Shown one piece after another: positions 50,674-55,483 of a stretch of DNA of 64,000 nucleotides. The stretch covers positions 1,012,501 to 1,076,500 of the forward strand of contig NZ_CP146608.1 in assembly GCF_037113415.1 (NCBI RefSeq). Direction: 5' to 3'. Under the pieces are notes generated by a model. It made no database searches, was not told the DNA's origin, and worked only from the letters and a program-made list of their open reading frames with translations. The position numbers and the translations under genes were made by a program. Origin of the DNA: Devosia sp. XK-2. GTDB taxonomy: Bacteria; Pseudomonadota; Alphaproteobacteria; Rhizobiales; Devosiaceae. How positions within the stretch are numbered: the first letter of the stretch is position 1; the number at the start of each line of letters is the position of its first letter.

Positions 50674-53310
50674 CTAGCCGGCCAGAATGCGGTCCAGAAT
50701 CTCACCCACATTGCGGCTGAGACTGTGCTGCTCCTTGAGCGCGCGCAGCGCTTCGAGGCCGGCTTCGCGGCGCGACGTTTCCAATATGGGCAGGATGCGG
50801 AAGCCGGTCAGAATGCGCGAGGCCACCTGCGGGTTTACCTTGTCGATCTCGACAACCGCTTCGGTAATGAACCGGAAGCCGGCACCGTCTACGCGCGCAA
50901 ACTGCGTCGGATTGCTCATGACGAAACTGCCCAATAGCGAGCGCAGGCGATTGGGGTTGGTCTTTGGAAAGTCTGGGGCCGCCAGAATGGCGCGCATCCG
51001 CTCTATCACCTCGTGATCGGGAGCCTGGGCCGAGGCCGTGAGCCACTTGTCGAACACCAGCGGGTCGCCGGCAAAGCGGGTGCGGAACTCGCCGAGCAGC
51101 GCGGGCGCATCCGCGGTCCAATGATGCGCAGAAATGGCCATGGCCGCATATCGATCGGTCATATTGGTGGCATCATGGAATTGTTGCGCGGCCAGCGCTG
51201 CGCCCTGCGCCGACCCGGCCACCAGCAAGGACAGAAGGCCGTTGCGCAGCGAGCGCCGGCCGGCCTGTCCGGCATCAGGGCTATAGGGGGCATTTGTACC
51301 AAGCGCGGCATAGGCGGCAGCGAGCTTGTCGCTTACCGGCGAAACCAATGCGGCAATTAGGGCCTTGCGGGCCTCCGATACGGCATCTGGATCGACATCT
51401 CTGCCGATGTTTCGGCTGACCACGGTCTCAGCGGGAATGCTCAACGCCTGAGCCTTGAAGGCGTCGTCGAGGTCCGGATTGTCCAGCGTATCGACCAGCG
51501 CCGCGCGCAAGGCGTCTACCTCGGCATCGGACCAGGCCTTGCCCTGTGCCGCATTGGCGATCAGCGCTATGGAGGCCGTTTGCAGGGCATCCCAGCGATT
51601 GAAGGGATCGCTGTCATGGCGCGCAAGGAACAGCAATTCGGCCTGTCCGAGATTGGTGCTGACCTTGACCGGCGCGGAAAAGCCCCGGAACAGCGAAGGC
51701 ACCGGCTTATTGGCGACGCCGGTAAAGGTCAGGGTGGCGCTGTCGCCCTCAAGTAGGATCAGGTCGCCTTCGACGGTACCGCCGGAAACCCCATTCCAAC
51801 CCATGGGGCTGCCGTTGGGGCCGATCAGCCCGAAGCGGACCGGGATCAAAAGTGGCTTCTTGGTTGGCTCGCCAGGGGTCGGGTCGACCTTCTGCGTCAG
51901 CGTCAGCGTATAGGTCTGGCTCGCCGCGTCATAATTGTCGGAAACGCCGATCTGTGGCGTCCCGGCCTGCAAATACCAGGTCACAAACTGGCTGAGATCA
52001 CGGCCGCTGGAGTCCTCGAACACTTTGATAAAGGCTTCAATCGTCGTGGCATCGCCATCATGGCGCTCGAAATAGAGATCCATGGCCTTGCGGAATCCAG
52101 CTTCGCCCAAAAGCGTAGCCAGCATGCGGACAATCTCGGCACCCTTCTCATAGACCGTGGTGGTATAGAAGTTGTTGATTTCGCGGAAACTGTCCGGGCG
52201 CGGCGGGTGGGCGAGGGGGCCGCCATCCTCGGGGAACTGGCTGGTCCTCAAGTTCTGCACGTCATGAATGCGCTGCACGGGGCGGCTGCGCTCGTCGCTG
52301 GTGAACTCCTGATCGCGGAAAACGGTCAGGCCTTCCTTGAGACAGAGCTGGAACCAGTCGCGGCAGGTGATGCGATTGCCGGTCCAATTGTGGAAATATT
52401 CGTGCGCAATGACCCGCTCAATGCCGTGGTAATTGGCGTCCGTCGCGGTCTCGGGCTTGGCAAAGACCAGTCTGTCATTGAAGATATTGAGACCCTTGTT
52501 CTCCATCGCCCCGAAATTGAAGTCGGAAACGGCGACGATGTTGAACACGTCCAGATCATATTCGCGCCCAAAGCGGCGCTCGTCCCAGGCCATGGAGCGC
52601 TTAAGGCTGTCCATGGCATAGGTGCATTCCGCTTCCTTGCCATGGGCGCAATAGATGCCCAGTTCGACCTCGCGCCCGCTCATGGTGGTGAAGCTGTCCT
52701 TGATCGATCCCAGATCGCCTGCGACCAGAGCGAAGAGATAGGCGGGCTTGAGGAAGGGATCTTCCCAGACTGCAAAATGAGTGCCGTCGCCCAATTCGCC
52801 CTGATCCACCAGATTGCCATTGGCCAGCAGAACCGGCGCCACCGCCTTGGGTGCACTCATGCGGACTTTGAAAGGAGCCAGAATGTCGGGGCGGTCGAGA
52901 TAATAGGTAATGCGGCGGAACCCTTCGGGCTCACACTGCGTGCACCAGGTTCCACCGGAGCGATAGAGCCCCATCAGCTTGGTATTGGCCTCCGGCTTCA
53001 GCGTCACTTCGGTTTCGAGAACGAAGCGGCGGTGCGGCGGCTCTACCAGCGTTAGCGAATTGGGATCACTCGCATAAGCGGACTGCTTCAGCGGCGCGCC
53101 ATCCAGCGCCACTGAATCGAGCTTGAGTTCATCGCCGTTAAGCACAAGCGGCGTGCCCGGCGCGGTCTTTTTCCGCGGCTCGATGGTCAATTGCGCCCGG
53201 ACGCGGGTACTCTCCTCGAGAATCTTGAAATCAAGCTCTACTGACACGATCCGGTACGGCGTGGGGGCATAGTCCTTGAGGTAAACGGTCTGCTCGCTCT
53301 CGATACGCAT
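50674..53310 (-). CDS. pepN: Aminopeptidase N
   Basis: An 878-residue M1 zinc aminopeptidase from ATG 53310 (MRIESEQTVYLKDYAPTPY); an ATG four codons upstream is less likely. Substrate-binding GAMEN (NFGAMENKGLN) is near residue 268, zinc site HEYFHNWTGNRIT with H303, and KEGLTVFRDQEF gives the third ligand. Length is that of proteobacterial PepN. It removes N-terminal residues from peptides in the cytosol. The 224 bases before the kinase at 50450 hold only a short ACCTTG/CAAGGT inverted repeat at 50477-50495. It is divergent from the ABC exporter. Confidence 0.93.
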   Translation of the reverse strand: MRIESEQTVYLKDYAPTPYRIVSVELDFKILEESTRVRAQLTIEPRKKTAPGTPLVLNGDELKLDSVALDGAPLKQSAYASDPNSLTLVEPPHRRFVLETEVTLKPEANTKLMGLYRSGGTWCTQCEPEGFRRITYYLDRPDILAPFKVRMSAPKAVAPVLLANGNLVDQGELGDGTHFAVWEDPFLKPAYLFALVAGDLGSIKDSFTTMSGREVELGIYCAHGKEAECTYAMDSLKRSMAWDERRFGREYDLDVFNIVAVSDFNFGAMENKGLNIFNDRLVFAKPETATDANYHGIERVIAHEYFHNWTGNRITCRDWFQLCLKEGLTVFRDQEFTSDERSRPVQRIHDVQNLRTSQFPEDGGPLAHPPRPDSFREINNFYTTTVYEKGAEIVRMLATLLGEAGFRKAMDLYFERHDGDATTIEAFIKVFEDSSGRDLSQFVTWYLQAGTPQIGVSDNYDAASQTYTLTLTQKVDPTPGEPTKKPLLIPVRFGLIGPNGSPMGWNGVSGGTVEGDLILLEGDSATLTFTGVANKPVPSLFRGFSAPVKVSTNLGQAELLFLARHDSDPFNRWDALQTASIALIANAAQGKAWSDAEVDALRAALVDTLDNPDLDDAFKAQALSIPAETVVSRNIGRDVDPDAVSEARKALIAALVSPVSDKLAAAYAALGTNAPYSPDAGQAGRRSLRNGLLSLLVAGSAQGAALAAQQFHDATNMTDRYAAMAISAHHWTADAPALLGEFRTRFAGDPLVFDKWLTASAQAPDHEVIERMRAILAAPDFPKTNPNRLRSLLGSFVMSNPTQFARVDGAGFRFITEAVVEIDKVNPQVASRILTGFRILPILETSRREAGLEALRALKEQHSLSRNVGEILDRILAG

Positions 53311-53556
53311 GAAACGGTCCAAATATGACGTTGGTTATGGTGGGGCCTGTGTCTGTCTGGTGACAGTCGACTCGTCGTTATCGTGTATCCTATGCGGCTC
53401 TCGGCTGCATAGCATGCTCTTTGCCTTCAATTGGGACGGCATTGGGGAGGATGATGCTAGAAGGTCGCCTGCACGTCGCTCCTCTGCACGTTTCGGTTGC
53501 ACGAGCGATGGTTCCAAAATTTCCGCACGGTTCGAGCCGTCGGCCATATATGCCTT

Positions 53557-53578
53557 GACCTCAACCGCGGTTGAGGTC
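53557..53578. promoter_or_regulatory. SoxR-box-like perfect palindrome
   Basis: A perfect 22-bp palindrome in the 322-bp spacer between pepN and the ABC exporter. The arms GACCTCAAC and GTTGAGGTC flank CGCG. The inner arrangement CCTCAA-6 bp-TTGAGG is the one of known SoxR boxes, and on the plus strand it begins inside a TTGACC hexamer (53555-53560), as in SoxR-controlled promoters. The expected -10 about 19 bp further is poor (CAAGGG), so the site may act differently. It lies 55 bases before the exporter start. I see no gene in 53311-53632 that I can support. Confidence 0.55.
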
Positions 53579-53632
53579 GCAAGGGTGTGGGCGAACAGTT
53601 CGGATGTCGCGAACAAAGAATGGTCTTGAAAC

Positions 53633-55483
<1,851 letters not shown>

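Follow-up and report, generated by a model that had tools for sequence, protein, structure and literature searches.

SoxR is an established sensor of redox-active chemicals. MerR-type proteins are described as acting on over-long spacers of 19 bp (PMC11049809, PMC9909328), and a review of these regulators puts the DNA kink at the dyad centre (PMC9909328). The targets reported for SoxR include exporters, among them the ABC transporter SCO7008 of Streptomyces coelicolor (PMC4146615) and mfsA of Stenotrophomonas maltophilia, which has a 19-bp spacer (PMC4411124), and the pattern outlined for non-enteric SoxR in PMC4146615 is one of transporters together with enzymes acting on small molecules. Purified SoxR binds the S. 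maltophilia box, ACCTCAACTGCAGTTGAGGT, whose centre is CTGCAG, in vitro (PMC4411124).

The locus described here, from Devosia sp. XK-2, shares with mfsA the arms of the box, a GC-containing centre, the 19-bp distance from the -35 element to the -10 position and an efflux pump as the (here proposed) target, and in both organisms a SoxR box lies just 5' of the soxR start codon, at a distance of 7 bp in S. maltophilia (PMC4411124) and 9 in Devosia. The two differ in that the S. maltophilia target is an MFS pump beside soxR, whereas the one proposed for Devosia is an ABC exporter encoded far from soxR and preceded by a weak -10. The S. coelicolor regulon, in which PMC4146615 places SoxR over an ABC transporter (SCO7008, ecaA) and a few small-molecule enzymes, is likened to the Devosia case by transporter class; it belongs, however, to another phylum, and S. 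coelicolor makes its own inducer. The E. coli soxS box, CCTCAAGTTAACTTGAGG as printed in PMC4411124, has arms identical to those of the Devosia box, but it serves a second regulator and has an AT-rich centre, in contrast to the exporter and the CCGCGG centre of Devosia.

The palindrome, the exporter promoter and soxR

The window, i.e. the whole 64-kb stretch of DNA that was analysed, contains a perfect palindrome which is, with high probability, a SoxR operator set within the promoter of the exporter, a site predicted from its sequence and context (Table 1). A preceding sequence-only reading had proposed a palindrome with CCTCAA-6-TTGAGG arms, overlapping a TTGACC hexamer just 5' of an ABC exporter, and re-reading of the coordinates upheld this, with 54 bases between the palindrome and the exporter ATG (53633). 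The exact arms at this spacing occur at a single site of the window, and four sites are found when up to two mismatches are allowed, compared to a mean of 1.95 in shuffled sequence, where at least four were reached in 19 of 100 shuffles, so that the number of such looser sites is roughly that of random sequence. Throughout the genome, which is one contig of 3.8 Mb, the looser CCTCA-8-TGAGG has four exact sites, two of which carry the full arms, and these are the exporter site and one in the intergenic region shared by soxR and the gene divergent from it, with no others. By simple arithmetic at even base composition, a fixed 12-base pattern would be expected about 0.2 times per 3.8 Mb.

Table 1. 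Coordinates of the predicted operator, its promoter elements and the proposed targets (window positions unless marked as genome)
Feature	Position	Strand	Remark
Perfect 22-bp palindrome GACCTCAACCGCGGTTGAGGTC	53557-53578	+	candidate SoxR box plus flanking GA/TC
18-bp SoxR-box core, CCTCAA-CCGCGG-TTGAGG	53559-53576	+	54-61 bases 5' of the exporter across the genus
Box centre, CCGCGG	53565-53570	+	differs among relatives
-35 element TTGACC (within CTTGACC)	53555-53560	+	overlaps the box
-10 position, 19 bp past TTGACC	53580-53585	+	CAAGGG here, TAGNNN in most relatives
ABC exporter, ABCB/MsbA kind, 616 aa	53633-55483	+	proposed target; membrane part fused to ATPase
134-aa membrane protein gene	genome C1:3023548-3023949 (L005:1802-2206)		divergent from soxR

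Exporter boxes (n=25) and soxR-adjacent boxes (n=26, from 30 loci examined out of a family total of 40 SoxR matches above the cut-off) have in common the consensus TTGACCTCAA-N6-TTGAGGTNGTAG with a 19-bp spacer. TTGACC stands at 24 of the 25 exporter boxes of soxR-carrying genomes, and the second base of the -10 position is A in all 51 boxes of such genomes, 25 at exporters and 26 beside soxR. With a -35/-10 distance of 19-20 bp as the criterion, the promoter of this strain has TTGACC in the register kept by its relatives and CAAGGG at its own -10 position, so that the earlier remark on a poor -10 proved apt, the distance being the usual one. CAAGGG matches TATAAT in one of six bases, and the -10 of the E. 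coli soxS promoter is stronger. Since CAAGGG, CAAGGC and CATGGC are also found, next to perfect arms, in the soxR-carrying genomes G056, G004 and G038, respectively, the weak -10 is common to several members of the genus. No promoter-like site was returned by a sigma-70 scan of 53200-53700 on both strands with spacers of 16-18 bp only (0.3 expected). An orientation of the box towards the divergent gene at 50674-53322, whose HEYFHNWTGNR motif is suggestive of an aminopeptidase N, was discarded in view of the direction of TTGACC and of the TAG register at 19 bp, both of which face the exporter.

The exporter is a single chain with both an ABC_membrane and an ABC_tran domain, and no named exporter family of NCBIfam reached its cut-off among the 25 matches listed. 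In many Devosia genomes it is followed 3' by one or two tandem exporters that are 46-51% identical (for example G018:C72:279617-283457); in this window an opposite-strand gene, presumably GGDEF/EAL-like as recognised by eye, comes next instead. The region that separates the exporter from the divergent gene contains a non-coding block (53350-53490) which is conserved in 17 aligned Devosia leaders, irrespective of the box, and in which a terminator-like hairpin (53390-53412) is found. The possibility that the leader forms a structured RNA 5' of the box was considered and dismissed, given that Rfam had no match in 53150-53700 (E up to 1) nor in the window at gathering scores and that the 17-leader alignment folds weakly, with a consensus energy of -11.5 kcal/mol. 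Elsewhere on the chromosome, CCTCAAGGGGGAGGGAGG or its complement occurs in at least 14 identical copies (e.g. at C1 115582, 182934, 317524 and 361237) and is probably a short dispersed repeat. In the transcriptome of Devosia mutans under deoxynivalenol, many ABC transporters are up, and SoxR is not mentioned in the available portion of that report (PMC6868067).

That no soxR lies in the window, as the earlier reading had it, is correct, all seven MerR_1 genes of the genome being located outside it; its suggestion to look for a soxR with the same box elsewhere in the genome led to precisely such a gene, with identical arms beside it. This soxR is found at 3023019-3023462 on the minus strand, approximately 1.95 Mb from the exporter, and is the only match to TIGR01950 in the genome (E up to 1e-12), scoring about 218 bits (217.7-218.3) against a cut-off of 116.9. 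Its product carries CIGCGCLSTETC, which is the CX2CXCX5C arrangement of the four Fe-S cysteines, numbered 119, 122, 124 and 130 in E. coli SoxR (PMC9909328), and the nearest solved chain is that of E. coli SoxR itself (2zhg, 1.4e-50). The second box, CTTGACCTCAACTAATGTTGAGGTTGTAGC when read away from soxR, is situated 9 bases 5' of the likely soxR ATG and, in the TTGACC-to-TAG direction, faces the gene of the 134-aa membrane protein.

A search of the 75 Devosia genomes detected relatives of this membrane protein in 8, each of which belongs to the 14 that carry soxR. The protein has no Pfam or NCBIfam match over the cut-off, and its predicted structure is a four-helix bundle (mean pLDDT 82, pTM 0.63) for which a comparison with the PDB gave no match with E < 0.4. 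A SoxR box also lies 33 bases 5' of a gene of the EcaC/SgcJ family in two Devosia genomes (G006 and G082; L259:1572 and L260:1257), a feature resembling S. coelicolor, and a Streptomyces gene under SoxR control bears the name ecaC (PMC4146615). Further genes preceded by boxes code for a DHA2-like MFS pump (G047) and for proteins of the ornithine-cyclodeaminase family (G047, G041) and the glyoxalase superfamily (G003), and some boxes have no clear gene downstream. As judged from these annotations, the putative box-linked genes fit the pattern reported for SoxR in non-enteric bacteria.

Box and regulator across the Devosiaceae

The comparison within the genus drew on 75 Devosia genomes, 71 of them with the exporter, and 70 upstream regions were read, with G017 left out as its exporter is cut by a contig end and G073, G075, G084 and G085 left out for want of an exporter above the threshold. 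Of 136 genomes searched in the family 120 were used; 11 further genomes were dropped for the same lack of an exporter above the threshold, and the dropped rows include the soxR-carrying G093, G095, G105 and G108. A box was called at 11 or more of the 12 arm bases, and genomes with a SoxR over the cut-off were taken as soxR-positive.

By these definitions, a box lies 54-61 bases 5' of the exporter in 13 of 14 soxR-positive genomes of the genus versus 7 of 56 soxR-negative ones, and shuffled upstream regions reach 11 arm bases anywhere in 250 bases in only 4 of 7000 cases. The lone soxR-positive exception, G035, has its only exact site next to soxR. The box stays at one place in the genus, and the sequence between box and start codon drifts. 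Exact arms followed by T number 27 in the 14 soxR-positive genomes of the genus and 6 in the 61 others, five of these six preceding an exporter start. In G073 (loci L268 and L269), counted among the 61 others, the SoxR reading frame is broken into two frames and an exact box lies 5' of the start of an exporter-like frame (L269), and assembly error seems likelier than true loss for its split SoxR and missing exporter.

At the level of the family, the exporter box is present in 25 of 35 soxR-positive and 9 of 85 soxR-negative genomes (Fisher p 8e-11, with relatedness ignored). Since ten of the 35 soxR-positive genomes do not have it, the exporter is not a universal target; apart from G035, the soxR-positive genomes without the box belong to more distant clades. 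Among relatives of the exporter from the order but outside the family, the 11 loci inspected (L026, L028-L037) have no box, the best reaching 9 of 12 arm bases.

Kinship was taken into account with a FastTree phylogeny of the 120 exporters, on which soxR has to change 20 times and the box 16 times, and from which 17 independent pairs differing in soxR were drawn on supported branches in 200 pairings. Averaged over the pairings, the box changed along with soxR in 6.6 of these 17 contrasts, changed against it in 0.0 and stayed the same in 10.4, which in a sign test gave a median p of 0.016 with a range of 0.008-0.125, some pairings thus missing 0.05. In the reverse test with ten pairs differing in the box, soxR on average went the same way in 6.5 and the opposite way in 0.0; the median p was 0.031 (range 0.008-0.219), and a few individual pairings contained a single opposite case. 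Allowing for kinship, the support for an association of soxR with the box is moderate.

Seven of the nine soxR-negative genomes that keep the box adjoin soxR-positive genomes in the tree, namely G009, G011 and G005, which sit by the present strain, and G128, G106, G086 and G002, which sit by other soxR-positive rows; G031 and G043 do not. This is the pattern expected of recent loss, even though the tree cannot separate gain from loss, and in G106 soxR may merely be absent from the assembly, as the genome is only 82% complete. Damage to TTGACC, an arm or the -10 A affects seven of these nine boxes as opposed to 4 of 25 exporter boxes in soxR-positive genomes (p 0.002), a contrast that is partly circular because the -10 criterion was picked after the soxR-positive boxes had been viewed; when this criterion is dropped, the damaged boxes number 5 of 9 versus 4 of 25. 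Remnants of the box persist at the same position in the soxR-negative G083, G040 and G079.

The earlier reading had raised a worry over the unusual centre, CCGCGG. This can be laid aside, because centres vary freely and the CTGCAG-centred Stenotrophomonas box is bound by SoxR (PMC4411124): 15 distinct centres were counted in the 25 exporter boxes and 21 in the 26 soxR-adjacent ones. The two groups differ in the G+C content of the centre, which is 75% for exporter boxes and 48% for soxR-adjacent boxes (p 0.001 on distinct centres, relatedness being retained in this figure). As the kink sits at the dyad centre, the G+C content of this segment could tune the thresholds of the respective promoters.

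The proposed switch and its alternatives

In the model that we favour, a SoxR dimer would occupy the over-long 19-bp spacer between TTGACC and the -10 position, and with its [2Fe-2S] cluster reduced it would leave the promoter poorly usable. Oxidation of SoxR by redox-active molecules would then lead it to kink and untwist the centre, allowing RNA polymerase to use both elements, and the pump so made would export the offending compound. The binding of SoxR, the redox response, activation in place of repression and the cargo of the pump are what we infer here. The SoxR-box reading as such is strengthened by the presence of soxR in the genome, by the same arms beside it and by the co-variation of soxR and box in the family.

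A different model, which we consider unlikely, accepts that SoxR binds but supposes that the -10 is too weak, so that the box would be mainly a repressor site or be sliding from use, with a promoter further upstream driving the exporter. It would agree with CAAGGG at the -10 position, with the outcome of the promoter scan (in which only 16-18 bp spacers were taken), with the close relatives that lost or never had soxR, and with the conserved non-coding block further upstream. However, the -35, the arms, the 19-bp spacing and soxR are all intact in this strain, and G004, G038 and G056 combine similar -10s with perfect arms while retaining soxR; it also has to be considered that alphaproteobacterial -10 elements are loose.

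Use of the site by some other MerR-type regulator is very unlikely: although the genome has seven MerR_1 genes and the box persists in nine of 85 soxR-negative genomes, the site has the same arms as the SoxR box of E. coli (PMC4411124), identical arms stand beside soxR, box presence tracks soxR, and seven of those nine boxes adjoin soxR-positive relatives, with seven of the nine damaged. That the palindrome arose by chance is extremely improbable, since the genome of 3.8 Mb has just two sites with the exact arms, one of them next to soxR, and the position of the site is kept across the genus while the flank leading to the start codon drifts, even if matches with two mismatches are common.

Starting from the predicted SoxR operator, a more far-reaching reading, to which we assign a rather low probability, would regard the SoxR of the Devosiaceae as a plug-in module, gained or lost some 20 times on the exporter tree, superimposed on a core exporter and driving two graded outputs, of which the pump would come on last. 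The core exporter would be kept without SoxR; the soxR-adjacent boxes, with their AT-richer centres, would feed the predicted four-helix membrane protein, and the boxes with GC-rich centres the exporter. Because MerR-type proteins kink DNA at the centre, a GC-rich centre would raise the threshold, placing the pump last.

Taken together, the locus is very probably a known kind of switch, predicted from sequence features in a lineage for which a search of open-licence PMC papers gave no prior description. Within that literature no account of a SoxR of this kind in Devosia was found, and the co-mentions concern an ArsR-type repressor that is also named SoxR and a review on plastic waste and its resistance genes. 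With its ABC exporter, the locus would add a likely target of SoxR in Devosia, and a natural experiment is offered by the dozens of related genomes, some with soxR and some lacking it, most of those without the regulator having either no box or a damaged one. The interest lies mainly in the repeated loss or gain of soxR and in the soxR-linked membrane protein, and comparing sister strains would allow the role of SoxR beyond enteric bacteria to be addressed.
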